The notes under the pieces were generated by a model. That model saw only the letters and a program-made list of their open reading frames with translations, did not search any database and had not been told where the DNA came from. Source: Bifidobacterium primatium (GTDB taxonomy: Bacteria; Actinomycetota; Actinomycetes; Actinomycetales; Bifidobacteriaceae). Taken from it: a stretch of 64,000 nucleotides of DNA. The position numbers and the translations under genes were made by a program. The stretch's first letter is position 1; each line of letters begins with the position of its first letter. This document shows, piece by piece, positions 36,534 to 57,364 of this stretch. Location: positions 62,001 through 126,000 of the forward strand of contig NZ_PEBI01000005.1 of assembly GCF_002802875.1 (NCBI RefSeq). The letters are read 5' to 3'.

Positions 36534-36590
36534 ACGACTTCGCGCTCCTTGCATTCGGTATATCGACGTCATCGAATCGGAGGATTCGAC

Positions 36591-37418: not shown

Positions 37419-38468
37419 TTAGCTGTGCATCGGTATTGCCGCGCAAGCGGCTCCGATTGCGCCTATGGGCTTGCCGTCAGGCACCAGAACGACTCGCTCC
37501 GGCAGGTGCAGCGAATCGATGAAAGCGCTGCCCGACTCGCGACGACGCAACTCCGCACGAATCTCGTCCAGCAACGGTTTACCGGTTTTCACCGTTCCCC
37601 CGCCAAGAATGATGATGCGAGGATCCACGGTGACGGCGAGAATGTCTATGGCGCTCGCAATTGCACGAACAATGGTATTGAGTGTGCGCACGGCCGCCGT
37701 ATGACGAGGGCTGGTTTCGTCGTATGCCTTGGCGATGATATCCGGCAACGGAGGGTTGGCCTCAGGCCATTGACGCATGATCGCGGCACCACCACACGCC
37801 GTCTCCAGGCATCCGTACTGCCCGCATGCGCATTTCCAGCAATGCGGTTCTACCGGAATATGACCGATTTCACCGACCACACCACTACTGCCATGGTCCA
37901 GTACTCCATTACGGAGAATACCGGCGGCCACGCCGGTTCCAAGATTCAGGAAGGCGACCACATCTTCGTTGCGTTCATGGTCGCCGCCCATTACCGCGTG
38001 GGCGCCGAGAGCGGCGGTATTGACGTCATTCTCCACATATACCGCCAGTCCGGTCGCCGCACCTATCTCCTTCGCAAACTCAAGACGGGAAACATCAAGA
38101 TTGGCGATATGCTCCACCACTCCCGCAGCGCTGTCCACTCGTCCGGGAGTTCCGATACCGACGCTCGAGACGGAGGAACCGTCATTACGTTCCGACACCC
38201 TGTCGCACAGCATCCGGATCACGGAAAGCACATCCTCCATCACCCGCCGCTCTCCACGGCGGGCGGGAATACGCACGTCATCGATGACCTGCGGAATCCC
38301 ATGACCGTCCAAGCCGATAAGCACGCCCTCGATCTTCGTGCCTCCCACATCCACGCCGATATGCAACGTGGTATGACCGTCGGCATCATTATCATCGGAA
38401 ACGGGGCTCACACCACCGTCAAAGGCTCTATCAAGTTCAATCAGCCGATCACTCGTCAGTTGGCTCAT
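37419..38468 (-). CDS. ROK-family sugar kinase (candidate GlcNAc/glucose kinase)
   Basis: 349 residues from the ATG at 38468 (AAAGGAGG 10 bases upstream). ATP site DVGGTKIEG, catalytic Asp in ENDVNTAALGAH, ROK zinc motif CWKCACGQYGCLE with three Cys and one His, and GIGTPGRVD. No HTH is present, so it is a kinase and not a repressor. Setting between a ROK repressor, nagB and nagA makes GlcNAc (to GlcNAc-6-P) the best-supported substrate, but glucose or ManNAc cannot be excluded. Its start lies inside the 3' end of the upstream repressor gene (20-base overlap), giving translational coupling. Confidence 0.9.
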   Translation of the reverse strand: MSQLTSDRLIELDRAFDGGVSPVSDDNDADGHTTLHIGVDVGGTKIEGVLIGLDGHGIPQVIDDVRIPARRGERRVMEDVLSVIRMLCDRVSERNDGSSVSSVGIGTPGRVDSAAGVVEHIANLDVSRLEFAKEIGAATGLAVYVENDVNTAALGAHAVMGGDHERNEDVVAFLNLGTGVAAGILRNGVLDHGSSGVVGEIGHIPVEPHCWKCACGQYGCLETACGGAAIMRQWPEANPPLPDIIAKAYDETSPRHTAAVRTLNTIVRAIASAIDILAVTVDPRIIILGGGTVKTGKPLLDEIRAELRRRESGSAFIDSLHLPERVVLVPDGKPIGAIGAACAAIPMHS

Positions 38469-39660
38469 GATGTGGCCGACCTCCTTTCTGACTATGCGCG
38501 GTCTGCTGCGATGCAGACTGCTGGTCGGAACCGCCCGATGAATCGGCAACGGCATCGTTATGGATACGGTCGATTAGCAGTCGCACTACAGCCACTGCCT
38601 GACCGCGCAAAATCAGGTCATCCCCCTGCTGGCACCGATGCAGCAACGGGGTCTGGCGATAATCGGCGGAAATCTCCGATTCGAGTTCCTCACGCATGGC
38701 ACCGATGAACGCCTCGCCCACGATTTCCGGAGGACCGAACACCGAGATATCGCTGAGGTCAAGCAGGCTTACCGACATCGACAACGCGCTGCCCAGCCGC
38801 TGACCGGCCTCGGCCAAGATTGCGGTCCTGGTTTCCGGCTCTGCCTCGATGCGCTTGCGCAACCGCGGCGCGGACAGCAGGGCTTCCAAGCAGCCGCGCT
38901 TGCCGCATACGCATTTCGGCCCCTTGGGATCTACCACCACATGACCGATTTCACCTGCGGCGCAGCTTCTTCCCATGACGATTTCGCCATTGACGCATAC
39001 AGCAGCGCCAACGCCTTCATCCACACTCATGAACATGGAATTCGCCGAGCACTGACCGAATGTGCATTCCCCCAACAGGGCCATGTTGGTGTCGTTGCAG
39101 ACGACGGCGGGAATATGGAATCGTTCCTCCAAACGCTCCTTGAGCGGCACATTGGTCCAACCAAGATTGACGGCCCTGATCACCATGCCGTCATCGTCCA
39201 CGATTCCAGGCACAGCAACACCCACGCCAAGTATCGGCTTGTCGGTTTTGGCCAGCAGTCGTTCGCACAGGTCGCATACGGTTTCCGGAAGGACATCACC
39301 GACGCTGTCACAGGGAATTTCCGTTCTATCGACGATGCGGCCGCACAAATCGGTCAACGCACCTCGAATCACAAATCGCCTCGTCAGGTCGATGGACACA
39401 ATGCGCCATCCCTCCGAATCGACGGCCAACATCACCGAGCGCTTGCCGCGACCGGATCGGCGGTCCATGCCCATTTCACGCAGCAGATGGCTCCCCACCA
39501 TCTCCGCCACCACTTCGCTGATGGCCATGCGGGAAAGCCCCACCTGGCGCCCCAATTCGGCGCGAGACATCTGGCCGGAAGGAAACAGCAAACGAAATAC
39601 AGCCCGAATATTACTGGCACGGACATCGGAAGGATTTGATTTCAGGGTCTTGGACGGCAT
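38449..39660 (-). CDS. ROK-family transcriptional repressor (NagC/XylR-like)
   Basis: 403 residues from the ATG at 39660 (AAAGGAG seven bases upstream). Residues ~10-70 are a winged HTH (SRAELGRQVGLSRMAISEVVAEMV). The rest is a ROK domain that lost kinase function or senses sugar: GVAVPGIVDDDG, NDTNMALLGE, the zinc motif CVCGKRGCLE and AGEIGHVVVD. It most likely represses the co-transcribed kinase-nagB-nagA genes and itself until GlcNAc or GlcNAc-6-P is present. A perfect 14-bp palindrome about 160 bp upstream is a candidate operator. Confidence 0.9.
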   Translation of the reverse strand: MPSKTLKSNPSDVRASNIRAVFRLLFPSGQMSRAELGRQVGLSRMAISEVVAEMVGSHLLREMGMDRRSGRGKRSVMLAVDSEGWRIVSIDLTRRFVIRGALTDLCGRIVDRTEIPCDSVGDVLPETVCDLCERLLAKTDKPILGVGVAVPGIVDDDGMVIRAVNLGWTNVPLKERLEERFHIPAVVCNDTNMALLGECTFGQCSANSMFMSVDEGVGAAVCVNGEIVMGRSCAAGEIGHVVVDPKGPKCVCGKRGCLEALLSAPRLRKRIEAEPETRTAILAEAGQRLGSALSMSVSLLDLSDISVFGPPEIVGEAFIGAMREELESEISADYRQTPLLHRCQQGDDLILRGQAVAVVRLLIDRIHNDAVADSSGGSDQQSASQQTAHSQKGGRPHHEPTDE

Positions 39661-39821
39661 AGACGTTCTCCTTTGCATGGATTCACCCATTTTCCGCTGA
39701 GGCACCCCCAAATTCGTCACCATCATTGCGTTTTTAGATGCCAAAATCGCATGCAATGACGATGAACGCTGCTGAGATATGTCCTCGCCGCCCATTGTCA
39801 GCCTTTCCATCGAATATTCAT

Positions 39822-39835
39822 CATCAATTGATGAC
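39822..39835. promoter_or_regulatory. Candidate ROK repressor operator TCATCAATTGATGA
   Basis: A perfect 14-bp palindrome about 160 bp upstream of the ROK repressor start, in the AT-rich promoter region. ROK repressors bind such AT-rich palindromes. Confidence 0.45.
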
Positions 39836-40043
39836 AATCAATGTTTTTATGTCAACAATCTTTACTTTATATCATTTATGAATCGACACGCCACAATAAT
39901 CCACAAATTACAATCCCCTCAAGGTGTTACATTGCCTATAATTTCAACGAAGTTGGAGAAAAATAATTTATGTAATTTTTATTGACATTAATATCGCGAT
40001 ATCGCGGTTCCGTCAGCCGGATCCCCGTGAAGAGACATAGGCA

Positions 40044-40105: not shown

Positions 40106-41002
40106 TTATTGAAGAATCGCCTGAATATTGCCGTACTGGTCGTCGGTAAGCTGCACGGCGGGTTCACGCACGAGCGTCGAGATGGGCAGTCCCTTGGCCT
40201 TGACGGCGCCCTTGATGGCGGAGATGAACAGGTCGGCCTGGTCATAGATGGCCATGAGGTGGCTGATGCGTTCGGCGGCCGCGATGGCGGTGGCGTAGTC
40301 GCCGTCGTCGTACGCCTTGTTGAGCCTGGCGAAGGTCTCGGGCTCCACGTTGGTCAGTCCACAGATCACGCCCGAGCCGCCGGAGACGCGGTTGACGAGA
40401 TAGTACTCGTCGAAGCCCGAGAACACGGCGAAATTCGGCTTGACCTCATGCACCGCCCGGACGACCTTCCTCGTGTGGCTGATGGTGTCGACCGTGTCCT
40501 TGATGCCCACAATCGTCGGGTATTCGGCGGCGAGCCCGGCAACGAGCCCGGGCGTCAGGTCGCTGCCGGTGCGAGGCGGGAAGTTGTAGAGGATCACCGG
40601 CAGGTCGGTCGCGGATGCGACCGCGCCGAAGTATGCCTTCGCCGCCCCCGGCGTGGGGCCGAAGTAGTACGGGGAGACGACCACCAGCGCATCCACGCCG
40701 CTCTTTTCGGCCGACTTGGCGAAGTCGACGACCTTGGCGAGGTTCGTGTCGCCCACGCCGGCGAACACCTTGATGCGCCCGGCCACGTGCTTGACGACGA
40801 AGTCGACCGCCTGCTTCTTGGTTTCAAGCGGGAAGGCGTAGAACTCGCCGATGCTGCCGAACACGAGCACGCCGTCGATGCCCGCCTCGATGAGGTGGTC
40901 GAGATGCCTGCCCCACAGTTCGTAGTCGATGTTGCCGTCGTCGTCGGTGATGGTGATTGACGGGCAGATCACACCGGAGAACACGGTTGCGCTCTTGGTC
41001 AT
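40106..41002 (-). CDS. DapA-family aldolase, predicted 2-keto-3-deoxy-L-fuconate aldolase
   Basis: 298 residues of the dihydrodipicolinate synthase/N-acetylneuraminate lyase family. The Schiff-base Lys lies in IVGIKDTVD, the pyruvate-binding motif is GSIGEF, and the Tyr lies in ILYNFPPRTG. In this operon, after dehydrogenase, lactonase and dehydratase, it should cleave 2-keto-3-deoxy-L-fuconate to pyruvate and L-lactaldehyde. Its ATG overlaps the fuconolactonase stop by four bases (ATGA). Family members with other roles (dihydrodipicolinate or KDG) are possible, but context is strong. Confidence 0.88.
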   Translation of the reverse strand: MTKSATVFSGVICPSITITDDDGNIDYELWGRHLDHLIEAGIDGVLVFGSIGEFYAFPLETKKQAVDFVVKHVAGRIKVFAGVGDTNLAKVVDFAKSAEKSGVDALVVVSPYYFGPTPGAAKAYFGAVASATDLPVILYNFPPRTGSDLTPGLVAGLAAEYPTIVGIKDTVDTISHTRKVVRAVHEVKPNFAVFSGFDEYYLVNRVSGGSGVICGLTNVEPETFARLNKAYDDGDYATAIAAAERISHLMAIYDQADLFISAIKGAVKAKGLPISTLVREPAVQLTDDQYGNIQAILQ

Positions 41003-41784
41003 TGCATGTCCTTTCCTAAAGTGATGCCGTAGGCGCGTACGGCGTTGTTCATGAAGAAGTCCTCGTCCTCGCCGAACGTGTCGAGCATGAGCTGGAAGTG
41101 CGTGGCGAACGTGGAGTTGAGTTCCACCACCGGCCAGTTAGAGCTGTAGAGCACCTTCTTCGGCCCGAACGTGTCGCGGACGTACTTCACGATGTCGGGG
41201 TCGACGGGGTTGTCGCCGGAGACCTTGATGTACGAGTTCGGCAGGGCCGCCATGTCGGCGAGCGCCTTCTTCGTGGTCTCGTCGAGTCCCGGCGCGTTGC
41301 CGAGGTGGTCCATGATGACGGTGACCTCGGGCACCTGGGCGAACGCCTTGGCCATGTCGGGCAGTTCCTCGCCGCGGTTGCACAGTTCGAACGGCATGCC
41401 CTTGGCGGCCATGGCCCTGAGTCCTTCGATGAACGAGGGTTCGAGGCATCGGCCGCGGGGCTCGGAGTCGACGTGCAGGGGCTCGCGGATGCCGTCGGCG
41501 TTGATGGGCACGCGCATGGTGGGGCTGAGCTTCACGCGCAGCATGCGCTTGAGGATCTTCGGGGACTTGTTCTCGTACAGTAGGCGGTCCTCCTGTTCGT
41601 GGTCGGCCGCGTCGACCTCCACATATACGCCGCCGAGGAAGTTCACGCCGAACCTGGCGTATTCGGCCTCGAGGTCCCCGATGGTGTACGTGTTCTGCAG
41701 CTTCGGCAGTCCGGCCAGCCAGGGCAGGTCCTGCACCTGAGGGTTCCAGATATGGAAGTGGGAGTCAATGACCCGCAACGTCAT
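40999..41784 (-). CDS. Amidohydrolase, predicted L-fuconolactonase
   Basis: 261 residues, COG3618/amidohydrolase_2 TIM barrel. The N-terminal metal motif is DSHFHIW; the barrel also has IMDHLGNAPG. In the last motif, where many relatives read SDWP, this protein has SSNWPV, with Asn at the usual metal-ligand Asp. It would open L-fucono-1,5- or 1,4-lactone to L-fuconate. It lies ten bases after fucU and overlaps the aldolase gene. The Asn may mean a changed metal requirement; some relatives with SNFP are known to be active. Confidence 0.86.
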   Translation of the reverse strand: MTLRVIDSHFHIWNPQVQDLPWLAGLPKLQNTYTIGDLEAEYARFGVNFLGGVYVEVDAADHEQEDRLLYENKSPKILKRMLRVKLSPTMRVPINADGIREPLHVDSEPRGRCLEPSFIEGLRAMAAKGMPFELCNRGEELPDMAKAFAQVPEVTVIMDHLGNAPGLDETTKKALADMAALPNSYIKVSGDNPVDPDIVKYVRDTFGPKKVLYSSNWPVVELNSTFATHFQLMLDTFGEDEDFFMNNAVRAYGITLGKDMQ

Positions 41785-41794
41785 ATGCCGTCAC

Positions 41795-42265
41795 CTACCG
41801 TTCCGGAGTCCAGACGTCATCGCCGAGTACGCATCCCTTACGGATAAGCAGGTTGGCGTACTGTGCCGATTCACTGGTGGCGATGACGCAATGGGCCCGT
41901 TTGGCGGCTTCGTAGAAGGCGAATCGCTCCAGGGTCTTGAACGCCTTCTCCCCTCGCGCGTCATAACGGCGGACGGCGTCATGGTACTGCTGCCAAATCG
42001 GCGTTTCCACAGGATCGCCCGGCACTACCTCCATCAGCGTGATGGGCTCGTCGTCGTAGGTGTCGATGGGCAATACCGCGAGCACGGCTTCGAGCACCTC
42101 CAAAGCACCGTGGCCGTCGCATCGTATGACCGTATGGCCTTCGGAGGAACCGATTGATTCCGCCGGAAAATTGCCATCGGCGATGACGAGTTCATCGCCA
42201 TGCCCCATTTCATCAAGTGCCTTCAACAGTTCCGGAGACAGCAGCGGCGGAATTCCCTTCAGCAT
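41795..42265 (-). CDS. fucU: L-fucose mutarotase
   Basis: 156 residues of the RbsD/FucU family: GHGDELVIADGNFPAES near the N-terminus with the active-site His and Asp, CDGHGALEVLEAVL and the C-terminal Lys/Tyr region (QYANLLIRKG). It speeds alpha/beta interconversion of L-fucose, giving the anomer that the dehydrogenase uses. It sits nine bases after the dehydrogenase stop, inside the fucose operon. Ribosome site GAGGAG precedes the ATG. Confidence 0.93.
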   Translation of the reverse strand: MLKGIPPLLSPELLKALDEMGHGDELVIADGNFPAESIGSSEGHTVIRCDGHGALEVLEAVLAVLPIDTYDDEPITLMEVVPGDPVETPIWQQYHDAVRRYDARGEKAFKTLERFAFYEAAKRAHCVIATSESAQYANLLIRKGCVLGDDVWTPER

Positions 42266-42274
42266 GGCATCTCC

Positions 42275-43066
42275 TCAGCTCAGGGCGCGGTCGAGGTGCA
42301 CGTAGCCGCCGTCGGGGAATATCCACTGGCCGGTGGTATGCGACGAACGGTCGGAAAGGAGGAACGCCGCGGCGGCTCCGATCTCCTCCGTAGTCGTCAT
42401 GCGATGCCCAAGTGGAATCTTGTCGGTGATGACGCTGAGACGGGCCTTCTGAGCGTCCTCGTCTCCGAATGTCTTGATCCAATTAGCATACAGCGGTGTC
42501 CAGCATTCCGCCACGACGATGGCGTTCACACGCACCTCGTCGGGAGCCAGCGCCGCCGCCCATTCACGGGTCAGGCCCAGTATGGCGCCCTTGGCCGCAG
42601 CGTAGGCGCTGGTCTTGCCTTGACCGGTCAATGCGGTCTTGGACGAGATGTTCACCACCGAGCCCTTACTCTCTTTGAGATAGCCGACTGCGGCATGGAC
42701 CAGTTCATAGTAGTGGGTCAGATTGCCGTGGATGGACTCCTCGAACTCACGCCATGATGTGGATTCGAGGTCCTTGTTGTCATTCCGGCCGGCATTGTTC
42801 ACGATGCCATCGATATGCCCGTATTTGGCATAGACGTCCTCGACTATCGGGGCGATCTTGTCGGTGTCGTTGAGGTCCAGCAGATATACGGAGTAGTCCT
42901 TCGTATACTGTTCGATCTCCGCCTTGAACTCTTCGGTTTTGTCGTCGTCGCGATTCAGGATGACGGGGATGGCCCCTTCATGGACGAGTTCCATGACGAT
43001 GCCCTTGCCGATGCCTTTGAATCCGCCGGTGACGATGATGACCTTTCCCTGAAGATGCAAATCCAT
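42275..43066 (-). CDS. SDR oxidoreductase, predicted L-fucose dehydrogenase
   Basis: 263 residues, classical short-chain dehydrogenase. NAD(P) motif TGGFKGIGKG, NNAG, and the catalytic Ser-Tyr-Lys in NISSKTALTGQGKTSAYAAAKGA, with the C-terminal motif RVNAI. In the operon order (mutarotase, lactonase, dehydratase, aldolase) it should oxidise L-fucose (beta-pyranose) to L-fuconolactone. It is separated by 55 bases from the dehydratase gene. Confidence 0.87.
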   Translation of the reverse strand: MDLHLQGKVIIVTGGFKGIGKGIVMELVHEGAIPVILNRDDDKTEEFKAEIEQYTKDYSVYLLDLNDTDKIAPIVEDVYAKYGHIDGIVNNAGRNDNKDLESTSWREFEESIHGNLTHYYELVHAAVGYLKESKGSVVNISSKTALTGQGKTSAYAAAKGAILGLTREWAAALAPDEVRVNAIVVAECWTPLYANWIKTFGDEDAQKARLSVITDKIPLGHRMTTTEEIGAAAAFLLSDRSSHTTGQWIFPDGGYVHLDRALS

Positions 43067-43121
43067 GAGAGCTCCTTTACTCTTGTCGTTATTGCCTATA
43101 CACGTGAAACATAGCCGCGGT

Positions 43122-44405
43122 CTAGCCTTTGTAGAGGTATTTCTCGGCGGTTTCGAGGGTCATCTCGGTGCCGTTGCCGGGCGCGGTCGGGGCCATGTAG
43201 CTGCCGTTGCGGATCACGGTGGGGTGCACGAAGTGCTCGTGCTGGTTGTCCACGTACTCGATCATGCGGCCCTCGGTCGTGCCGGACACGGCCACGTAGT
43301 CGAACATCGCGAAGTGGCACACCGCCTCGCACAGGCCCACGCCGCCCGCGTGCGGGCACACCGGCTTGTTGAACTTCCTGGCCAGCAGGTACTCCAGCAC
43401 GATCTCCTGGGGGCCCGCCACACGGGTCGCGTCGATCTGCATGATGCCGAACGCGTTGGCCTGCAGGTACTGCTTGAACATGATGCGGCTCTGCATCTGC
43501 TCGCCCGTGGCCACCGGGATCGGGTTGATCGCCCGGGCGATGGTCGCGTGCCCGATCACGTCGTCCGGGCTGGTGGGCTCCTCCACCCACGCCAGGTCGA
43601 ACTCGTGGAACCGGTTGATCCACTCGATCGCCGTGGGCACGTCCCACACCTGGTTCGCGTCCACCGCCAGACGCACGTCCGGGCCGATCGCCTCGCGCGC
43701 CAGGGCCAGGCGGCGCAGGTCGTCGTCCACGTTCTGGCCGACCTTGAGCTTGATCTGCCTGAAGCCCTTGACCCGGCTCTCCTCCCTGGCCAAGGCGACC
43801 ATCTTCTCGTCGGAGTAACCCAGCCAGCCTGCCGCGGTCGAATAGCCCGGGTAGCCGGTCTCGAGCAGATGCTCGATGCGCTCGGCCTTGCCCCTCTGCC
43901 CGGCCCTGAGGATCTCGACGGCCTCCTCGGGGGTCAGCGCGTCGGTCATGTACCGGAAGTCCAGCGTGGAGACCAGCTCCTCGGGCTCCATCTCCGCCAG
44001 CAGCCTCCACAGCGGCTTGCCGGCGCGCTTCGCCTTGATGTCCCACAGGGCGGAGAGCACCGCGCCGATGGCCATGTGCTCCACGCCCTTCTCCGGACCC
44101 AGCCAACGCAGCTGGGAGTCATGGACGAACAGGTCCCACGCCCTCTTCATGTCGTCCAGCAGCGGCTCGACCTCCATGCCGACCAGACGCTCGCCCATCG
44201 ACTCGATCGCCTTGCACACCACGTCGTTGCCGCGCCCGATCGTGAACACGAAGCCCACGCCCCTGACGCCATCGTCCGCATCCGTATGCAACTCCACATA
44301 CGCCGACGAATAATCCGGATCTGGGTTCATCGCATCCGAACCCGACAACGTGTTCGACGTCGGAAAACGAAAATCGAACGTTTTCACTGCGGTAAAACGA
44401 CTCAT
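43122..44405 (-). CDS. L-fuconate dehydratase (enolase superfamily)
   Basis: 427 residues, enolase superfamily MR subgroup. Catalytic Lys in KLKVGQN, metal ligands in VDANQVWD and WVEEPT, ATGEQ (Glu) and the catalytic His in CPHAGGVGL. The long N-terminal capping domain (~150 residues with PDPDYSSAYVELHTDADDGVRGVGF) matches fuconate dehydratases. It removes water from L-fuconate to give 2-keto-3-deoxy-L-fuconate. First gene of the operon; promoter with TTGAAA-N17-TATCCT lies 39-67 bp upstream. Confidence 0.93.
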   Translation of the reverse strand: MSRFTAVKTFDFRFPTSNTLSGSDAMNPDPDYSSAYVELHTDADDGVRGVGFVFTIGRGNDVVCKAIESMGERLVGMEVEPLLDDMKRAWDLFVHDSQLRWLGPEKGVEHMAIGAVLSALWDIKAKRAGKPLWRLLAEMEPEELVSTLDFRYMTDALTPEEAVEILRAGQRGKAERIEHLLETGYPGYSTAAGWLGYSDEKMVALAREESRVKGFRQIKLKVGQNVDDDLRRLALAREAIGPDVRLAVDANQVWDVPTAIEWINRFHEFDLAWVEEPTSPDDVIGHATIARAINPIPVATGEQMQSRIMFKQYLQANAFGIMQIDATRVAGPQEIVLEYLLARKFNKPVCPHAGGVGLCEAVCHFAMFDYVAVSGTTEGRMIEYVDNQHEHFVHPTVIRNGSYMAPTAPGNGTEMTLETAEKYLYKG

Positions 44406-44443
44406 GATAGGCTCCTTCGCCTTGCAATAGGTTCTTACAGTAA

Positions 44444-44472
44444 AGGATAATGTACGGTAAGGAAATTTTCAA
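44444..44472 (-). promoter_or_regulatory. Sigma70-type promoter of the fucose catabolic operon
   Basis: On the minus strand -35 TTGAAA (44467-44472), a 17-base spacer and -10 TATCCT (44444-44449), about 39 bp before the dehydratase ATG; 5' UTR near 30 nt with GAAGGAG. Confidence 0.65.
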
Positions 44473-44494
44473 TATTGTTTTAGAATTTTTCCAT
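44459..44494. promoter_or_regulatory. Two candidate LacI-regulator sites at the fucose operon promoter
   Basis: AGGAAATTTTCAA at 44459-44472 covers the spacer and -35, and TTTAGAATTTTTCCAT at 44479-44494 lies just upstream. They share GGAAATTTT and TTTTTCCA halves with the palindrome TTGGAAATTTTTCCAA before lacI at 47482-47497 (12 of 16 bases for the second). Confidence 0.45.
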
Positions 44495-44503
44495 TCATGA
44501 GCG

Positions 44504-44550
44504 AGGCGGCCGCGCCGGCCGGAAATGCGCCGACCGGACTGCGACCGCCT
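44504..44550 (-). terminator. Stem-loop after the GH29 fucosidase gene
   Basis: AGGCGG/CCGCCT outer arms with inner CCGG/CCGG pairing lie 18 bases past the GH29 stop. No T tract follows; it may attenuate rather than stop transcription. Confidence 0.4.
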
Positions 44551-44567
44551 TTATGGATAAGGGCCGA

Positions 44568-45920
44568 TTAGTGTCGAGCAAAACGCACGACCTGAGGGCC
44601 GGCGACATCCGTCGCGGGAATCTCCGCGGTCAGCATATCGCCGTCCGCCTCCACGACAACGTTGCCACCGCCAAGAATGGTTGCGGAATCCACATCGACC
44701 GCACCCGCATCGATGCGCAGCGGAACCCTGCCCGCAGCATCGACGACGGCATAGATGCTCTTGCCGTCTCCGGTCCAACGAACCCACGGCTCGCCGTCCC
44801 CCTCTCCGGAAGGCGAGGCTTCCGGCACCGGTTCGACATCATGAATGCTCGGCGCGTTCACGGCCATCCAGTCCGCCATGCCCTCGAGGCACTTCCGCTG
44901 CAGTTCGGGGATGCGACCGGCCGCATCGGGGCCGATGTCGAGCAGCAGGTTGCCGCCCATCGACACGACGTCGGCGAGTAGCTTCACCGCCTCCGGACCG
45001 GTCATGTAGGAGTCGGCATCCTCCATCTGGTTGTAGCCGAAGGAGTATCCGATGCCGCGGGTCATCTCCCACATGCCCTTGCCCATGAGCTCCTTGCCCT
45101 GCTCGTATTCGACGGTACGGAAGTCCCAATGGGTCAGGCCCCAACGGTCGTTGACCACGCCATCCGGCACCACATCGTAGTAGTGCTCGAACAATCGCGC
45201 CACGCTGAAATCGTTGTCCTCTTCCGAGATCTTCGGCACGTCGATATCTCCCCACAGGATGGACGGCTGGTACTTGTCGATGAGGTCCATCACATGCGAG
45301 TACATATAGCGGGCGTAGCTCTCGCTCTGCGGCACGTATTCCGCGGCGTCACCGAGAATCGGCATGTTGGGCTCTTTGTGCCAGTCCAGTCCGGAAGAAT
45401 AGTAGACGCCGAACTTCAGTCCCTTGTCACGCATGGCATCCGCGAATTCCTTGACCAGGTCACGATGCGGGCCGCGGTCGACGGTGTTCCATCCGTCGTT
45501 GTCGGGGGCCTTCCACAGGGTGATGCCCTCGTGATGCTTCGTAGTCGGCACGAAGTAGCGGGCGCCGGCACGAGCGAACAGATCGGCCATGTCGTCGGGG
45601 TCGAACGCCTCGGCCTTCCACATGTCGATGAAGTCCTCATATGGCATGTCGCCATAGACTTCCTTCTGATGTTCGGCGGCCGGGGAGCCCTCGATGCTCA
45701 TCGTGTTCCAGTACCACTCCGCATACGGGTTATGGGTGTTCCAGTACAGCGGATCGTCGAAGGTACCGAGCGCGCCGATGGGCTGCGCCCATGCCGGCAC
45801 CGAATACGAGCCCCAATGGGCGAAGATGCCGAGGCCGGCGCCCTTGAACCACTCGGGCGTATCATGCACAAACTTCTCGTACATCTTGGGACGCTGCGGA
45901 TTTACCATGAACAACACCAT
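44568..45920 (-). CDS. GH29 alpha-L-fucosidase, intracellular
   Basis: 450 residues, GH29. N-terminal barrel signature FKGAGLGIFAHWGSYSVPAWA, HHEG and YYSSGLDWHKEPN; the expected nucleophile Asp lies in SILWGDIDVP. A beta-sandwich C-terminal domain follows. No signal peptide is present, so it works on imported sugars. It releases L-fucose from fucosyl-oligosaccharides (human-milk- or mucin-type). Ribosome site AAAGGAG. It lies 67 bp after MFS1, with a small hairpin between; probably co-transcribed with that transporter. Confidence 0.93.
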   Translation of the reverse strand: MVLFMVNPQRPKMYEKFVHDTPEWFKGAGLGIFAHWGSYSVPAWAQPIGALGTFDDPLYWNTHNPYAEWYWNTMSIEGSPAAEHQKEVYGDMPYEDFIDMWKAEAFDPDDMADLFARAGARYFVPTTKHHEGITLWKAPDNDGWNTVDRGPHRDLVKEFADAMRDKGLKFGVYYSSGLDWHKEPNMPILGDAAEYVPQSESYARYMYSHVMDLIDKYQPSILWGDIDVPKISEEDNDFSVARLFEHYYDVVPDGVVNDRWGLTHWDFRTVEYEQGKELMGKGMWEMTRGIGYSFGYNQMEDADSYMTGPEAVKLLADVVSMGGNLLLDIGPDAAGRIPELQRKCLEGMADWMAVNAPSIHDVEPVPEASPSGEGDGEPWVRWTGDGKSIYAVVDAAGRVPLRIDAGAVDVDSATILGGGNVVVEADGDMLTAEIPATDVAGPQVVRFARH

Positions 45921-45969
45921 GTCGAAACTCCTTTGTTTTGCTTGTTGTCCGATTGTTTTCTGATTGTTG

Positions 45970-45984
45970 CGGCCGAATCGGCCG
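45970..45984 (-). other. Intercistronic hairpin CGGCCG-aat-CGGCCG
   Basis: A six-bp perfect stem just after the MFS1 stop and before GH29. It may stabilise the upstream mRNA or lower read-through. A similar hairpin lies at the corresponding place in the MFS2 module (51559-51587). Confidence 0.4.
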
Positions 45985-45987
45985 TGA

Positions 45988-47205
45988 TCACACCGTGAGC
46001 TTCTTGTCCAGCTTGAGGGTAATCAGTTCGATGACCACCATCACGAAGTACAGCGCACCACCGACGATGATGGCGAATCCGGCCGAGGAATTGCCGAAGA
46101 TACTCGCCGTCATGGCGAAGAAGTACGGGGAGATCAGGTAGCCGATGTTGATGCCGATGATCACGATGGACGTGGTCAGATTCATCGAATGGGCCGGCGA
46201 ATAGTCCACGAATCGTGCCGTCAGCGCGGGATTGATGATGCCCCATGCGAAACCGGCGATGAGCACCAGCGCGAACATCAACGGCACGTTCTTCGTCATC
46301 GCGGTGGCGATGAAGCAGATGCCGATGACCACTTCGGAGATGGTCACCGTCAGGCGCTTGGTGACCTTGGCGACCTTGTCGAAGACCACGCCGGAAAGGA
46401 TGGTGGCGACGATGAGGAAGCTGAAGATCAACGTGGCGAGCGAGGCCGATCCGATGCCCTCGTCGACCACATAGCTGGCGAGTTTGATGGACATGACGTT
46501 GTAGATCATGGAAACCACCAGGAAGATGAACGCCAACCACAGCACCTGCCAATTCGTCGTCTGCTTCTGGGATGCGCTCTTGTCCACGACATGGCCTTCA
46601 TCATCGACGACGGCGCTGCGAATACTGAAGTTATCGAACTCTTTCGGAATGAACATGCCGACGAGCACCATCGGTATGAACAGCAGGAAGAAGATAAGAT
46701 ACGTGGACTGCCAGCTGATGGTGATGAGCAGACTGGCGATGAACAGCAGAACGGCATCGCCAAGATTGCCGACGGCCTGACGCCAGCCAAGCAGTTTGCG
46801 TTGCATATCGCCGTCGTAGAGGTCGGTGATGTAGGAGACGCTGAGCGTGACGAACAGCGCCGAACCGAAGCCGAAGAACATACGCGATATGAGAATCGGC
46901 CAATAGTACGGGAAGAACGCCGGAATCACACCGGTGACGGCCGATATGAAGAACCCAGCCATTGCGATTTTCTTACGTCCGATGGCATTGGCGAATATAC
47001 CCGTCAAGGCCGTACCCACCATGGTGCCGATCGTCGGCACTGTGGTCAGCAGCTCGACGTTCGCCGTGGAATAGTCGGAGAACGCCTCCTTCATTGCCGG
47101 AATGGTGCCGCTGATTGCATTGCTTGCCGACATCAGCAGCGACATCGACAGGACACCGACAACCAGGGTCTTGGATTTCAACGCTTTGGCAACGTCTAAC
47201 GCCAT
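45988..47205 (-). CDS. MFS transporter 1, candidate L-fucose or fucosyl-oligosaccharide importer
   Basis: 405 residues from the ATG at 47205 (AAGGGGG upstream; a TTG 14 codons earlier is less likely). Twelve TM helices; N-terminal SNAISGTIPAMKEAFSDYST and GTMVGTALTGIFANAIGRKK are MFS hallmarks. It is a close paralogue of MFS2 at 51598 (same length, same motifs such as SVSYITDLYDGDMQR). It is unlike the FucP family. Its gene lies directly before an intracellular fucosidase, so it probably imports the fucosylated sugar intact or fucose. A divergent LacI gene lies upstream. Confidence 0.87.
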   Translation of the reverse strand: MALDVAKALKSKTLVVGVLSMSLLMSASNAISGTIPAMKEAFSDYSTANVELLTTVPTIGTMVGTALTGIFANAIGRKKIAMAGFFISAVTGVIPAFFPYYWPILISRMFFGFGSALFVTLSVSYITDLYDGDMQRKLLGWRQAVGNLGDAVLLFIASLLITISWQSTYLIFFLLFIPMVLVGMFIPKEFDNFSIRSAVVDDEGHVVDKSASQKQTTNWQVLWLAFIFLVVSMIYNVMSIKLASYVVDEGIGSASLATLIFSFLIVATILSGVVFDKVAKVTKRLTVTISEVVIGICFIATAMTKNVPLMFALVLIAGFAWGIINPALTARFVDYSPAHSMNLTTSIVIIGINIGYLISPYFFAMTASIFGNSSAGFAIIVGGALYFVMVVIELITLKLDKKLTV

Positions 47206-47573
47206 TGTTTCTGGCCCCCTTTTTTCTTTCGATATGCCGAAAGACAACGTCGTCTTTCGAAATGCGGCCGCATGATCATCGTCGATTATGCGGAAGAGGA
47301 AATTCGCTCCTTACAGGCTTGACTGGGACATTGATGCGGGACAAGGACCATGCCACATGGTTTTGCCGGTGGCGGAAGCAAACGATGCTCGTCGACGGTG
47401 GCGGGCCTCATCGCTTCGGTTCTTTATGTAATGAAGATTGACAGTATCGTAACACTGGAATCAGAAATATGTAAACCCGTGTTGGAAATTTTTCCAATCC
47501 TTTTCGTCGATATTTTCCATTTCCCATGACTCGAACCGGTAGTATGAAAACGACGATGGAGAAGGAGCGACCG
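47206..47573. other. Divergent regulatory region between MFS1 and lacI-type gene
   Basis: 368 bp. It holds the LacI palindrome at 47482-47497, a plus-strand TTGACA at 47438-47443, and a weak minus-strand promoter (-35 TTACGA 47447-47452, 16 bases, -10 TACATA 47425-47430) for MFS1. The ribosome site AAGGAG for the regulator lies at 47562-47567. No small gene seen. Confidence 0.6.
47482..47497. promoter_or_regulatory. Candidate operator TTGGAAATTTTTCCAA
   Basis: Seven-bp arms TTGGAAA/TTTCCAA around two bases, about 75 bp before the LacI-type start and about 30 bp upstream of the MFS1 promoter. LacI-family regulators bind short palindromes of this size, so autoregulation and control of MFS1-GH29 are likely. 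Confidence 0.6.
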
Positions 47574-48608
47574 ATGAGCACCAACCGAAAGCCGAAGATC
47601 AGCGAAATCGCGGAGCTTGCCAACGTGTCGCCCTCGACCGTCTCCAAGGTCATCAATGGGCGGGCCGGCATATCGGAACAGACCAGGTCCCAGGTGGAGG
47701 AAGCGCTCGCCAAACTCGGCTATTCCAAGCCGCTGGTCAGCACCAAGGTCTCCCAAACCATCGAGATCATCACCGAGTACATCGAAAACAACGGCACCAT
47801 CGAACTCATTCGTCATGCCGCGATCTGGGGCAAGCGACATCAGCTCGGCATCACGGTGAATCAAAAGGACCCCGATGAATCACTGGGCGACTGCCTACGG
47901 CAGATCATCAATCGCAACCCCTCCGGCGTAATCATCCAACAGTTCTCCAAGCTCTCCGAAGACGATCAGGCGCTACTGGACTCCCGCGACATTCCATGGG
48001 TGATCATCGATCCCGTTGACGTACCGGACGATAATGTCAACAGTGTATCGGTCGATAATTGGACCGGTGGCTACCAGGCCACGCAATACCTCGTTCAACA
48101 AGGCCATACCCGTATCGGAGTCATCAGCGGACTCAAGCAGACGCAATCGGCCATCGCCCGTTTCAGCGGCTATCTGGCGGCATTGCGTCAGGCGGGAATC
48201 GAATACGATTCCTCAATTACTCGGGAAAGTGATTACCGCTCGGAAAGCGGCTACCAGGCCGCATGCTCATTGTTGGATATGCCCAATCCCCCGACGGCGA
48301 TATTCGCCTGCAACGACCTCACCGCAGTCAATGTCTACAAGGCGGCGAACGAGCGGGGATTGGAACTGCCGCGGCAGCTTTCCGTAGTCGGCTTCGACGA
48401 CGTATATCCGGCCGCATATCTCAGCCCTCCGCTGACCACGGTCGAGCAGCCGTTCGGTGCCATCGCGAATGCCGCAGTGCAGATGATTATGAATATCCGT
48501 GCGCACAAAACAGTCGAGCGGCACATTACGTTACCGACCCATCTCATCGTGCGAGATAGCGTGACGGCACCGCTCGAACATCATGACGCCGGATCGGCGA
48601 ATGCCTGA
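47574..48608 (+). CDS. LacI family regulator of the fucose cluster
   Basis: 344 residues from the ATG at 47574 (AAGGAG six bases before; in-frame ATGs upstream lack one). HTH at residues 8-30 (ISEIAELANVSPSTVSKVINGRAGISE), then a periplasmic-binding-like sensor (GYQATQYLVQQGHTRIGVISG, FACNDLTAVNVYKAANERGLELP, VGFDD). The sugar or derivative it senses (fucose, fuconate or a fucosylated glycan) is unknown. It is placed between the two transporter-glycosidase modules and is divergent from MFS1. Confidence 0.92.
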   Translation: MSTNRKPKISEIAELANVSPSTVSKVINGRAGISEQTRSQVEEALAKLGYSKPLVSTKVSQTIEIITEYIENNGTIELIRHAAIWGKRHQLGITVNQKDPDESLGDCLRQIINRNPSGVIIQQFSKLSEDDQALLDSRDIPWVIIDPVDVPDDNVNSVSVDNWTGGYQATQYLVQQGHTRIGVISGLKQTQSAIARFSGYLAALRQAGIEYDSSITRESDYRSESGYQAACSLLDMPNPPTAIFACNDLTAVNVYKAANERGLELPRQLSVVGFDDVYPAAYLSPPLTTVEQPFGAIANAAVQMIMNIRAHKTVERHITLPTHLIVRDSVTAPLEHHDAGSANA

Positions 48609-48660
48609 CGGGTGAGACAGCTTCCGCCACCATGTTTATTATGGCCCATCTTCGATGACT

Positions 48661-48679
48661 TCCATGCCGTCACGGCATG
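48661..48679. terminator. Short hairpin at the lacI/cutC convergence
   Basis: CCATGCCG-tca-CGGCATGG, perfect eight-bp arms, overlapping the cutC stop codon. Convergent genes meet here; the hairpin may help end both. Confidence 0.4.
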
Positions 48680-49464
48680 GGAATCCCATGCAACACGCGA
48701 ACCGCTTCACGAACGATGCGCTCGTCGGTGCGTTCGATCATGGCGTCGACGCCGCCCCCTCCGGGTCCGCCGGCCGACTTGACGACATGCTTGGCGGAAA
48801 GATGCAGGGCATCAACGCCCGTGGCCGACACCGCAGAAAAATCCTGAGGCCGAAGACCGCCTCCGGCCATGATCTCAATGCGGCCCGCCGCCCAATCCGT
48901 CAATTCGGCGAGTGCATTCACGCCTTCGGGAGCACTAGGAGCCCCGCCCGAAGTCAGGATTCTTGTATACCCGAGCGAAATCAATGTTTCCAAAGCTTTC
49001 CGCCGGTCATTCACCACATCGAACGCACGATGGAACGTCATATCAATATCGGAGCGCCCCAAACGCTCCGCTTCCTCATGTGCGGTTTCAATAAGCAGCC
49101 GGGCGAACCTGATGTCGACGGATCCGTTGGCATCAAGCCCCCCGACGACCAAGCCTGAAGCACCCGCCTCCAATGCGGGGCGCACATCGGCCAATTGCAT
49201 GGCCTTGTCATCGTCGTCATAAACGAAATCCCCACCACGAGAGCGAATCAGAACCTGCACGCCAAGCTGGGGAGCCGCTTCGGCACACAGGCGAATTGCA
49301 CCGAAACTCGGCGTAAGTCCTCCGGTAGGGCCGAGGGCCGAGCACAATTCGATGCGGTCGGCCCCCGCCTGCTGTGCGATACGTGCACCCTTCACATCCT
49401 GCACGGCGATTTCCAACACAGGACGGACGGAATCAGAATGATGAAGAGCATCGGCGTATCGCAT
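48670..49464 (-). CDS. cutC: CutC-family TIM-barrel protein
   Basis: 264 residues. Motifs LEIAVQDVKGARIAQQAGADRIELCSAL, GGLTPSFG, FHRAFD and GGA/GG near the C-terminus match the CutC family (PF03932). Early work linked CutC to copper handling, but later studies question this; its TIM barrel may act on a sugar. Here it begins 11 bases after the GH151-like gene and is surely co-transcribed with it, which favours a role in glycan processing. Confidence 0.9.
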   Translation of the reverse strand: MRYADALHHSDSVRPVLEIAVQDVKGARIAQQAGADRIELCSALGPTGGLTPSFGAIRLCAEAAPQLGVQVLIRSRGGDFVYDDDDKAMQLADVRPALEAGASGLVVGGLDANGSVDIRFARLLIETAHEEAERLGRSDIDMTFHRAFDVVNDRRKALETLISLGYTRILTSGGAPSAPEGVNALAELTDWAAGRIEIMAGGGLRPQDFSAVSATGVDALHLSAKHVVKSAGGPGGGGVDAMIERTDERIVREAVRVLHGIPMP

Positions 49465-49475
49465 GTCATCACCCC

Positions 49476-51497
49476 TTACTTGAGCGAGATCTCCACGACC
49501 TCATAGCCATCGATCTTCGGAATGGAAAGCGTGAGGTAACCGTCGGCGACCTCATACCGGGACGGATCGATGATTTCGCCGGAGCGAACGGCGGTGACCG
49601 ACGCAACCTGAGCGTCGCCCACCTTCACCCGCACCTGCTGATCGTACAGCGGCACCTTCTCATCAATGGTGTAGAGATTCACGGCCTGCTTCTTGCACGG
49701 ATAGTACAGGCAGTGCAGCAGCAGGGAATTCCGCTCCTCGGACTTGCGCAGCTGCAGCTCGAGAGAACTGACCTGACGGTCACCGACCTTCTCCACCAAG
49801 CGGTCCGGCAGCAGCAGATCGAGTGCATCGGCGAAGATGTCCTTGACCCACAGCGGCGCATAGTCACGGTAGATGCGGAACAGCGGGTGGGAGAAGTACA
49901 CGACATCGCCATGTCGTACGGCTGCCGGGAATCCGGTCACGCCGGTGGACGGGGCGTGCTGGTGCGAGCAGAAGGTCTTGCCCTCACGGTTGAAATACGG
50001 TTGCACGGAATCGAGCAGCACTTCGGCGTCCACCGGCTGCACACGGGCGCCACGCTCGTACATCACCAGCTCTTCCTTGGGGAAGGCCTTGCCGATGACA
50101 TCATTCGGCATGATGAAGTCACGATCCCAGTAGGATTCGCCCAGCATGGACGTGCCGTAGAGCTCGTTGACGGCGTCACCACCGTTGTCCATCGACATAT
50201 AGGTGCCGATGACCTTGCCGCCGGCCTTGACATAGGCGTCCAGCTTGGTCTTGAGCTCCTCCGTCGCGACGATTTCGTCAGGCAGGACGATGAGACGATA
50301 GCGTCCGAAATCCATGTCGGGATCGATGATGTCGAACTGGCAGCCGAGTTCGGTGAGCATGCGGTTGGCACCGATCAGCGATTCGGAAAGATGGGATTCC
50401 ATGTTCCATTCGCGTTCCGGGGTCATCACGGCGATGTCGACCATGTCTTCGGTGCCCTGCGTCACCGGCTCGAGTGCCTCGACCTGACCGTACACCTTGC
50501 CGATCAGGTCATAGGCGGCATCGGACAGCTTGCCGCTGGGGTGCAGCTGGTCGCCGATGGAGCATCCGGCGCCCATGGTGAGCATCTGGAAGCATTCGTA
50601 TTCAAGGGCGTTGATGTTCTTCAGCGAGTGGAAGTCTCCCCAGTAGGTGTGGAACTTGCCGGTCATGCCGATGACGTGCTTGCCGAGGTTGCGCACATAC
50701 TTCATCACGATCGGGAAGTTGTCGTATCCCCAAGTGCCGCCGGGCAGGCTCTCGATTTCGAGATGCGAGTAGGTATCCAACGAGGCCTTGTTCGACGGTC
50801 CGATATGCGAGCCGTTGAAGAAGATGGTGGCGCCGGGCACACGGCGGGCGAGAAGATCGCGGGTCTCACGCTTGAACTCATCAAGAAGCACGGCGCAGTA
50901 GGCCTCACGCTGACGAATGTCGGTGTGGTCGAATCCGTGGCGCTTCATCTGTACCTGGCAACGCGGGCAATCACATGGCACGAGGAAGAAGATGTCGAGG
51001 AACAGGCCGTCGATGCGATCGGGGCCGAGCGTATCGATGATGTCGTTGATGTGATCGAGCAGATATTCGCGGTAATTGCTGTTCAGGCAGAGCGAATCGT
51101 AGAAGTTCGGCTTGGGAACCATCGGCTGGCCGCTGATCGGGTTGCCGTCGGGATCGAGCGCGAGCCATTCGGGATGGTTCAGCGCGCTGTATTCGTCCCA
51201 TTCCACGGTGGTGTATACCGGCACGCGGATGCCGCGCTTATGGCAGGCGTCAATCTGCTCGATAAGCAGGTTGTGGTCCTTGAGATGGGGATGAATCAGT
51301 TCAGGATGGCGCTTGGACGGGTAGAACAGATAGCCGTGGTGGTCGCGGGCGAAGCAGGTGATCGAGTTGATATGCGCCTTCTCGAGCCGGTCGGCGAAGG
51401 CCTCGGCGTCGAAATCGGCGGCCACATTGTCGATGTACGGGCTGGTGTGGAAGTCCAGATGAATCTGACGGTCATGAGGCTTTTGGATTGTCGTCAT
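49476..51497 (-). CDS. GHL6/GH151-like glycosidase, candidate intracellular alpha-L-fucosidase
   Basis: 673 residues with a TIM-barrel of the hypothetical glycosyl hydrolase 6 type: HLDFHTSPYIDNVAADFDAEAFAD, CFARDHHGYLFYPSK, DGLFLDIFF (candidate acidic residue), CPRCQ, and EIESLPGG. A middle domain resembling the GH42 trimerisation fold (DIIDPDMDFGRYRLIVLPDE) and a small C-terminal beta domain follow. This composition matches GH151, which contains alpha-L-fucosidases, though beta-galactosidase-like activity cannot be excluded. No signal peptide. It is preceded by MFS2 by about 100 bp and followed at once by cutC. Confidence 0.72.
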   Translation of the reverse strand: MTTIQKPHDRQIHLDFHTSPYIDNVAADFDAEAFADRLEKAHINSITCFARDHHGYLFYPSKRHPELIHPHLKDHNLLIEQIDACHKRGIRVPVYTTVEWDEYSALNHPEWLALDPDGNPISGQPMVPKPNFYDSLCLNSNYREYLLDHINDIIDTLGPDRIDGLFLDIFFLVPCDCPRCQVQMKRHGFDHTDIRQREAYCAVLLDEFKRETRDLLARRVPGATIFFNGSHIGPSNKASLDTYSHLEIESLPGGTWGYDNFPIVMKYVRNLGKHVIGMTGKFHTYWGDFHSLKNINALEYECFQMLTMGAGCSIGDQLHPSGKLSDAAYDLIGKVYGQVEALEPVTQGTEDMVDIAVMTPEREWNMESHLSESLIGANRMLTELGCQFDIIDPDMDFGRYRLIVLPDEIVATEELKTKLDAYVKAGGKVIGTYMSMDNGGDAVNELYGTSMLGESYWDRDFIMPNDVIGKAFPKEELVMYERGARVQPVDAEVLLDSVQPYFNREGKTFCSHQHAPSTGVTGFPAAVRHGDVVYFSHPLFRIYRDYAPLWVKDIFADALDLLLPDRLVEKVGDRQVSSLELQLRKSEERNSLLLHCLYYPCKKQAVNLYTIDEKVPLYDQQVRVKVGDAQVASVTAVRSGEIIDPSRYEVADGYLTLSIPKIDGYEVVEISLK

Positions 51498-51558
51498 TGG
51501 TAACTCCTTTGTTTATTGACGAATGCATTGAGAAATCACGGGTATCTATCTATAAGAA

Positions 51559-51587
51559 AGGCCGGCCGGCATGACGCCCGACCGGCC
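51559..51587 (-). other. Intercistronic hairpin between MFS2 and GH151-like gene
   Basis: On the minus strand GGCCGGTCGGGC and GCCGGCCGGCC pair around a short loop and are followed by TTTCTT, resembling a weak terminator. It would lower downstream expression relative to the transporter. Confidence 0.45.
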
Positions 51588-51597
51588 CGAGGGTGCA

Positions 51598-52809
51598 TCA
51601 GATGGTCAGCTGCTTGTCGGCCTTGACGGTGACAAGGTCGATGGCCGCAACGACCAGATACAGCACGCCACCGATGATGATGGCGAGCGCCGGCGAGTCA
51701 TTGCCGAACAGGTGCGCGAACATCGCGAAGAAGTACGGCGAGATGAGGAAGCCGATGTTGATGGTGATGACGATGATGGACGTGCTGAGGTTCATGGAGT
51801 TTGCCGGGGAGACGTCGACCAGGCGGGAGGTCAGGGCCGGGTTGATGATGCCCCATGCGAAGCCGGCGAGCAGAACAAGGGCCATGAGCACGGGCACGTT
51901 GTGCACGAAGGCGACGGCGACGTAGCACACGCCGATAACGATTTCGAAGATGAAGACAGTGAGACGCTTGGTGATCTTCGAGATCTTCTCGAACAGGATG
52001 CCGGAGAAGATGGCGGCGAGCACGAGGAAGCTGAAGATCCAGGTGGCGGTGGCCGCGGTGCCGATGCCCGTGGTGACGACGTAGCTGGCGAACTTCAGAG
52101 CGATGACGTTGTAGAACATCGAGATGAGCATGAAGATGACGGCCAGGAAGATGACCTTCCAGTTGGTGGACGGACGGGCCGAGGTCTCGGCGGCGTGGAT
52201 GTGGCCTTCCTCGTCGACGGAGCTGCTCTTGATGTTGAAGTTATCGAATTCCTTAGGCACGAACAGCGTGATGAGCACAACCGGGACAAGCAGCACCAGG
52301 AAGACGAGATATGTGGTGTTCCAGCTGAAGGTGATGAGCAGGCCGGCGATGAAGAGCATGATGGTATCGCCAAGGTTGCTGGCCGCCTGACGATAGCCGA
52401 GCAGACTACGCTGACGGTCGCCTTCATACAGATCGGTGATGTAGGAGACGCTCAGCGGGTTGAAGATACCCATGCCGACGCCGAACATGAAGCGGGAGAT
52501 GAGGATGGGCCAATATTCGGGGAAGAAGGTGGGGAAGATACCGGCGATGCAGGCGATAAGCAGGCCGGACAGCACGGACTTCTTCTTGCCGAGATAGTTC
52601 GAGAAGACACCGGTGAGCACGGTGCCCACCATCACGCCGGCCGTCGGGATGGTGGTCAGCAGCTCGACGTTGGCCTTGGAGACGTTGGAGAAGGCCTCCT
52701 CCATGGCGGGAATGGTGCCGCTGATGGCATTACTGGCCGAAAGCAGGAACGACATCGATAGGACGCCGACCATCAACCTCTTGGATTTCAGTGTTTTCTC
52801 GATATCCAT
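51598..52809 (-). CDS. MFS transporter 2, candidate fucosylated-sugar importer
   Basis: 403 residues from the ATG at 52809 (AAAGGA five bases upstream). Twelve TM; SNAISGTIPAMEEAFSNVSK and VMVGTVLTGVFSNYLGKKK; same central loop and C-terminus (KADKQLTI) as MFS1. The two probably arose by duplication. The substrate is likely the one cleaved by its GH151-like neighbour. The upstream region (52810-53258) is AT-rich and long. Confidence 0.87.
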   Translation of the reverse strand: MDIEKTLKSKRLMVGVLSMSFLLSASNAISGTIPAMEEAFSNVSKANVELLTTIPTAGVMVGTVLTGVFSNYLGKKKSVLSGLLIACIAGIFPTFFPEYWPILISRFMFGVGMGIFNPLSVSYITDLYEGDRQRSLLGYRQAASNLGDTIMLFIAGLLITFSWNTTYLVFLVLLVPVVLITLFVPKEFDNFNIKSSSVDEEGHIHAAETSARPSTNWKVIFLAVIFMLISMFYNVIALKFASYVVTTGIGTAATATWIFSFLVLAAIFSGILFEKISKITKRLTVFIFEIVIGVCYVAVAFVHNVPVLMALVLLAGFAWGIINPALTSRLVDVSPANSMNLSTSIIVITINIGFLISPYFFAMFAHLFGNDSPALAIIIGGVLYLVVAAIDLVTVKADKQLTI

Positions 52810-53258
52810 GATCATCCTTTCTCGATATCGATGGCATCTTCACCAGTCAAATCATCATTGATTGGATCAAGGCTTTAATTGTCAATTATCCTAACATAAA
52901 AATATCCACAACACGACATTTACCTAAAATAAATGCCTTCGCCCCTATCCAACCAGTAACCAACCGGTCGAACAATCCTTTGATTTCACCAGAAAATAAA
53001 GGATTACCGATAACACCTCTTTCATCTTTCACCAAGGAAATCTTTTTGTAAACTTCCCTGCTAATAAATGTACACTTCATTGTTACCGAGACTTTTCCAC
53101 CCGATTACGGCCCCTGCTTCCCGAAGTGGGACAGCGCCCAGACTATACGAAAAGGACCATTGCCGTCGGCACCGACTCATTTTGGAGTGTTCCGGCAACC
53201 AGCACGACATCGATGCCGGCACCCCCATTCCCCTCCCCGCCGAGGCTATACTGGCTTC
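52810..53258. other. AT-rich divergent intergenic region
   Basis: 449 bp between MFS2 and the mutarotase gene. Much lower GC than the surrounding genes (52860-53080). TTGACA occurs on the minus strand near 52877-52882. No supported gene. The fucose palindrome is not present here; only a poor GGAAAT...TTTTT match is seen near 53034-53049. Confidence 0.55.
53247..53252 (+). promoter_or_regulatory. -10 hexamer TATACT, leaderless mutarotase
   Basis: TATACT is followed by six bases and ATG at 53259 with no Shine-Dalgarno. Confidence 0.5.
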
Positions 53259-57228: not shown

Positions 57229-57298
57229 TGTTCTTCCCCTGTCTGTAGTCCCGCCATGAATCGAATAACCCACGCGAACGTACACATAGACATGATTC

Positions 57299-57364
57299 AC
57301 GCTAGGACCGCTACGACAACGCGATACGGCGGGAAGGCAACGGACGGGGCAACACCATATGAAC
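57299..57364 (-). promoter_or_regulatory. Promoter with PHO-box-like repeats, 5'-nucleotidase gene
   Basis: Read on the minus strand: GTTCATATGGT, GTTGCCCCGTC, CGTTGCCTTCC, CGCCGTATCGC, GTTGTCGTAGC, then a -10 TAGCGT (57299-57304). These are 11-base steps and align without gaps to the nuclease promoter at 62051-62116. No -35 consensus is present, so an activator is needed. Confidence 0.6.

Follow-up and report, generated by a model that had tools for sequence, protein, structure and literature searches.

Research on the use of fucosylated sugars by bifidobacteria has so far focused on ATP-binding cassette (ABC) importers. In Bifidobacterium infantis, the cluster Blon_0341-0346 combines a GH151 enzyme with a transporter, an ABC importer of fucosyllactose, and a fuconate dehydratase (PMC7522266, PMC11206791). 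Another route is known from Lactobacillus casei BL23, whose alf-2 cluster contains a gene for a major facilitator superfamily (MFS) permease, alfH, and a GH29 gene, alfC (PMC6960285). Deletion of either gene abolishes growth on fucosyl-alpha-1,6-N-acetylglucosamine-asparagine (fucosyl-alpha-1,6-GlcNAc-Asn) and, once the repressor is removed, also prevents related 6'-fucosyl sugars from being used (PMC6960285). Clusters like alf-2 occur in B. asteroides and B. actinocoloniiforme, and alfH is stated for other bifidobacteria (PMC6960285). Here we describe a predicted gene island of about 13 kb in Bifidobacterium primatium, in which two MFS carriers, MFS1 and MFS2, each lie beside a putative intracellular fucosidase. 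The island is located in a 64-kb stretch of contig NZ_PEBI01000005.1 (positions 62,001 to 126,000), hereafter the window, and all coordinates without a locus label count from its first letter.

Like the alf-2 cluster, the window has an MFS carrier gene adjoining the gene of a putative intracellular alpha-1,6-fucosidase. MFS1 (45988 to 47205, minus strand; Pfam MFS_1; the TTG at 47247, listed as the start, probably makes the gene too long) is located directly upstream of GH29 (44568 to 45920, minus strand; PF01120, E = 6e-88). Unlike alf-2, the window also has a second pair, formed by MFS2 (51598 to 52815, minus strand; Pfam MFS_1, E = 5e-44) and a GH151 alpha-L-fucosidase-like enzyme (49476 to 51497, minus strand; GHL6 and GH42M). 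The GH29 is of a different type from AlfC, resembling B. infantis Blon_0248, and asnA2, pepV and asdA are not alongside. L. casei excretes the fucose, whereas the gene content of the window organism predicts its oxidation. In contrast to Blon_0341-0346, the GH151 gene is accompanied by an MFS carrier and nag genes.

The locus is probably a catabolic island whose substrates are small, fucosylated host glycans that contain GlcNAc, with carriers that import them, cytosolic fucosidases that cleave them and enzymes that catabolise both halves. We infer its substrates, direction of transport and regulation as follows. MFS1, an AlfH-type permease, would import fucosyl-alpha-1,6-GlcNAc or a close relative, a remnant of core-fucosylated N-glycans, for cleavage by the cytosolic GH29 alpha-1,6-fucosidase. 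MFS2 would import a second fucosylated glycan, probably GlcNAc-containing with a different linkage, for the cytosolic GH151. The freed fucose would enter the adjacent non-phosphorylating pathway and yield pyruvate and lactaldehyde, and the freed GlcNAc would be taken by the adjacent ROK kinase, NagA and NagB. NagR would repress the carriers until GlcNAc metabolites accumulate, while a LacI regulator would contribute a fucose signal.

The genes and the arrangement listed in an initial annotation were found by window annotation and profile searches at the same positions. The suggestion made there that the two MFS proteins form an unreported transport route does not hold, since import by an MFS permease with an intracellular fucosidase has demonstrated precedent in the alfH and alfC deletions and alfH homologues are stated for bifidobacteria (PMC6960285). 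Each part of the island is known, but the way in which they are combined and jointly controlled looks new. The new elements are a three-way match between carriers and fucosidases, the pairing with GH151, a probable control by NagR and the joining of fucose and GlcNAc breakdown in one complete island.

Pairing of carriers with fucosidases

The genes, pairings, operator-like sites and insertion point given below were read from the sequence. Among 189 Bifidobacteriaceae genomes, 13 MFS genes matched MFS1 at E below 1e-100, and 13/13 adjoin a fucosidase gene. The eight next-nearest MFS genes (about 30% identity, used as family outgroup) are not beside one. The pairs fall into three sets. MFS1-like carriers lie next to a Blon_0248-type GH29 in the window, B. 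catulorum and B. kashiwanohense JCM 15439. MFS2-like carriers lie next to GH151 in the window, B. catulorum and a genome of a different lineage, G109. In seven genomes the MFS gene lies next to a short GH29 (342 to 361 residues where the start is clear). One representative of this third GH29 was tested and is of TT1819/AlfC type, scoring 787 bits to B. asteroides TT1819 and 619 to L. casei AlfC. An Asparaginase_2 gene is divergent from the MFS gene in all three loci of this set that were tested, which is how alf-2 is arranged.

MFS1 and MFS2 are 62% identical to each other. MFS1 is 93 to 95% identical to its B. kashiwanohense and B. catulorum counterparts, which adjoin the same GH29. MFS2 shares 97% identity with its counterpart in B. 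catulorum and 82% with that in G109, and each of these two lies next to a GH151 gene. Maximum-likelihood analysis placed the 13 carriers in one clade (100/100), on a long branch of 2.11, with 100/100 support also for the MFS1 set and for the AlfC set. The three MFS2 rows were near neighbours, their set being without separate support, and the shuffle test is inflated by the presence of near copies. Sampling 396 genomes across the phylum added no clade member beyond those of the window genome. When plasmids were searched for relatives of the MFS carriers and of AlfC, no alfH came up, and the carriers in the four regions inspected were distant and had other gene neighbours. The predicted MFS1 structure (mean predicted local distance difference test score 75) resembled many MFS proteins at similar scores and was uninformative on substrate.

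This conservation by partner across species favours two different fucosylated glycans for the two carriers, as the initial annotation had proposed, although fucosyllactoses are unlikely cargo for MFS1 (see below). It is also unexpected for a single monosaccharide, which bears on the improbable alternative that MFS1 and MFS2 are importers of free L-fucose, analogous to FucP, and that the glycosidases act on glycans entering otherwise. In two relatives a FucP gene is located in the fucose operon between dehydrogenase and lactonase (both just under the fucP cut-off), and in B. kashiwanohense the fucose operon is accompanied by an ABC importer. The window operon shares the LacI regulator and oxidation enzymes with these operons, and its uptake part is MFS1-GH29 instead; without the relatives' FucP gene, some carrier for fucose would be needed. 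However, two FucP-family genes over the cut-off are located elsewhere in the window genome, away from fucose genes, and B. kashiwanohense DSM 21854 (= JCM 15439), which has MFS1-GH29, did not use L-fucose (PMC5080750). FucP identity of the window carriers was rejected, in line with the initial annotation: the NCBIfam model TIGR00885 matched three other loci of the genome and neither MFS1 nor MFS2.

One FucP-family gene of the same genome (L059:6996-9863, contig C1) follows directly after an apparent anhydro-N-acetylmuramate kinase gene, and because of this neighbour its cargo may be a muramic-acid sugar and not fucose.

A more far-reaching version of the island reading, which we hold only tentatively, is that bifidobacteria have a NagR-controlled family of MFS importers diversified by glycan, each evolving together with its own fucosidase, and that MFS2-GH151 takes a fucosyl-GlcNAc of a linkage without a known importer. 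Secondary carriers tracking three fucosidase types would amount to a second uptake route. This route would target small leftovers such as core-fucosyl-GlcNAc and not intact milk sugars, and the carrier family would couple fucose use with GlcNAc sensing.

Candidate substrates of the two pairs

Both fucosidases appear to be intracellular, as initially annotated. No hydrophobic segment is present at the N-terminus of GH29 or GH151 (the highest mean over 19 residues within the first 45 was 0.60 and -0.01, respectively). No GH95 was found in the window genome, so the fucosidases found there are this GH29 and this GH151.

The best solved relative of the window GH29 is the Thermotoga maritima fucosidase (E = 3e-97), and the enzyme is 93 to 94% identical to BBKW_1714 of B. 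kashiwanohense JCM 15439, where MFS1 is also directly upstream. BBKW_1714 was published as 100% identical to Blon_0248/Blon_0426 of B. infantis (PMC5080750), and all are of the same GH29 type. Blon_0248/Blon_0426 are reported to be specific for alpha-1,6-fucose, attacking core fucose only once the outer glycan is removed (PMC9430343), and to be without activity on 2'-fucosyllactose and 3-fucosyllactose (PMC7522266). From the identity to BBKW_1714 we infer alpha-1,6 specificity for the window GH29. With such a partner, 2'-fucosyllactose and 3-fucosyllactose are unlikely for MFS1, and Fuc-alpha-1,6-GlcNAc or a short relative is the best candidate. An Asn-linked glycoamino acid was also considered as the substrate. 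The failure to find an Asparaginase_2 gene in the window genome speaks against it, though the homologues from bee bifidobacteria have one.

B. kashiwanohense, which has the MFS1 carrier, releases fucose during growth on fucosyllactose (PMC5080750). This would suit export of fucose or another breakdown product by the MFS proteins, relieving sugar stress. Such a role is highly improbable: a complete fucose oxidation pathway adjoins the pairs in the window organism, cytosolic fucosidases require an importer, and L. casei alfH is required for import (PMC6960285).

The window GH151 aligns to the solved GH151 fucosidase 6tvk over residues 8 to 670 (E = 1.5e-114), and the family was found in only 3/189 Bifidobacteriaceae genomes. 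Fucosidase activity of GH151 is disputed in the literature (PMC8395109). If the more far-reaching reading above is true, import of fucosyl-GlcNAc through MFS2 would supply the natural substrate of GH151, and the locus is a testable handle on this disputed point.

NagR-operator-like sites and the sugar-breakdown genes

The initial annotation reported a complete fucose oxidation operon beside MFS1-GH29, and genes for all five enzymes of the non-phosphorylating L-fucose pathway were identified, each on the minus strand. These are an L-fuconate dehydratase of the enolase superfamily (43122 to 44405), an L-fucose dehydrogenase of the short-chain dehydrogenase/reductase family (42275 to 43066; NCBIfam NF052481, 405.8 bits against a cut-off of 300), an L-fucose mutarotase of the FucU/RbsD family (41795 to 42265; PF05025, E = 7.7e-41), a fuconolactonase of the amidohydrolase family (40999 to 41784; PF04909; below the NF052480 cut-off, assigned solely by superfamily and position) and a 2-keto-3-deoxy-fuconate aldolase of the dihydrodipicolinate synthase family (40106 to 41002; PF00701, E = 6e-68).

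The aldolase gene is followed directly by an intact nag cluster (39837 to 35187), also on the minus strand. It consists of a ROK-family regulator (38449 to 39837; NagC/Mlc-like), a NagR orthologue by position with the nag gene order of its relatives, a ROK-family sugar kinase, probably nagK (37419 to 38468), the glucosamine-6-phosphate deaminase gene nagB (36591 to 37379; over the cut-off) and the N-acetylglucosamine-6-phosphate deacetylase gene nagA (35187 to 36572; TIGR00221, 222 bits against a cut-off of 225.65). In B. infantis the ROK regulator NagR governs GlcNAc genes and importers of host glycans, and no MFS-fucosidase pair was seen in the parts of that account covered here (PMC9599254). 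The nag cluster, the GlcNAc link with its NagR-like operators and a CutC gene had been overlooked in the initial annotation, and the GlcNAc link leads to a different substrate prediction.

As a motif we used the 23-bp palindrome TTATGTCAA-N5-TTGACATAA upstream of G109 nagR, which comes from G109 alone and may differ from the published NagR matrix. Sites of at least 13/18 occurred four times in the 64-kb window against 0.45 expected. Two of them are upstream of nagR (39968 to 39990, 15/18 and zero mismatches to a relaxed pattern; 39847 to 39869, 15/18), one is between MFS1 and LacI (47424 to 47446, 14/18), and a weaker one is upstream of MFS2 (52877 to 52899, 13/18). Shuffles of the same intergenic stretches gave P = 0.001 for nagR, 0.001 for MFS1/LacI and 0.025 for MFS2. 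Over the 2.70-Mb genome the three best sites for the relaxed pattern were the nagR pair and the MFS1/LacI site, a ranking that is not fully independent, the pattern having been loosened after the window sites were known. There were 13 matches genome-wide against 3 with the pattern reversed, several of the 13 being two strands of one site. In B. catulorum the MFS1/LacI site scores 15/18 at the aligned position. At the level of sequence, MFS1 has a good link to NagR and MFS2 a suggestive one.

Several points weigh against import of GlcNAc-linked sugars under NagR control. B. kashiwanohense has no NagR-like site at MFS1. L. casei deleted for AlfR2 showed poor growth on free 6'-fucosyl-GlcNAc (PMC6960285), and the missing Asparaginase_2 is the type of enzyme needed for the Asn form. 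Membership of MFS1 and MFS2 in the AlfH family would follow from the bee-bifidobacterial carriers beside AlfC-type GH29, which share a clade with MFS1 at 47 to 49% identity, and not from AlfH; 'works like AlfH' would be a stronger claim than 'is an AlfH', because the comparison did not include the AlfH sequence itself. The operator-like sites at MFS2 in the window and G109 are weak (P = 0.025 each), and the B. infantis GH151, Blon_0346, is reported to be active on Fuc-alpha-1,2-Gal, without GlcNAc (PMC8395109). The last two points would suit a glycan of the H-antigen type (Fuc-alpha-1,2-Gal) without GlcNAc for MFS2-GH151, leaving only MFS1-GH29 GlcNAc-linked. We regard this as rather unlikely, as in G109 nagR-K-B-A is immediately preceded by MFS2-GH151 on its own, and a 13/18 site precedes MFS2 in both lineages.

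The LacI-family gene (47526 to 48608, plus strand) probably encodes the fucose regulator, because LacI genes 45 to 57% identical to it adjoin fucose operons in other bifidobacteria. No palindrome or operator for LacI was shared among the fucose operons compared. A strong palindrome, CGAAAGACAACGTCGTCTTTCG, is located at 47238 to 47259 between the MFS1 start and LacI, and a similar one is present in B. kashiwanohense. In B. catulorum its arms are altered and their pairing is retained, so a 5'-leader hairpin is as likely as a LacI operator.

Insertion point, synteny and neighbouring genes

In three genus relatives nagR and an aldose-1-epimerase gene are divergent neighbours, and fucose genes do not intervene. 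In the window these two genes are separated by the entire block, some 13 kb long. B. catulorum has the same island gene order, on two contigs, which shows that the arrangement is not due to chance. A reference in PMC8406136 indicates that this species was first described from faeces of a baby marmoset, and nag genes sit in N-glycan islands of other marmoset bifidobacteria (PMC8406136). A marmoset-gut origin and such islands would suit an N-glycan-derived substrate for the proposed catabolic island.

The G+C content is 54 to 58% around both MFS genes against 67 to 69% beyond 54 kb. These AT-rich spots fit acquisition of the block, although AT-richness does not extend to the fucose genes. A search of the window for tRNA genes gave none.

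The pairs also occur in other settings. In B. kashiwanohense JCM 15439 (L008:9893-12708) the MFS1-GH29 pair stands alone, with no fucose, nag, LacI or GH151 genes nearby, and a mobile element adjoins this fucosidase gene (PMC5080750). The G109 locus (L029:10264-18499) is without fucose-oxidation genes. In G134 (L037:9394-14396) the genes running divergently from the MFS-GH29 pair encode a ROK regulator and a GH20 hexosaminidase, another neighbour of GlcNAc type. The gene of the CutC-family protein (48670 to 49464, minus strand; PF03932, E = 6e-57) is located between GH151 and LacI in the window and B. catulorum, and not so in G109.

The B. primatium genome encodes another fuconate dehydratase (96% identical) elsewhere, at L111:9104-10423 on contig C2, where it is accompanied by a different MFS gene. 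Its neighbours are apparent alcohol-dehydrogenase and sugar-lactonase genes, and the arrangement is the same in one relative and largely so in another. Beyond the island, at 54334 to 62003, the window contains two very large putative secreted-protein genes, whose products resemble a 5'-nucleotidase and an extracellular nuclease.

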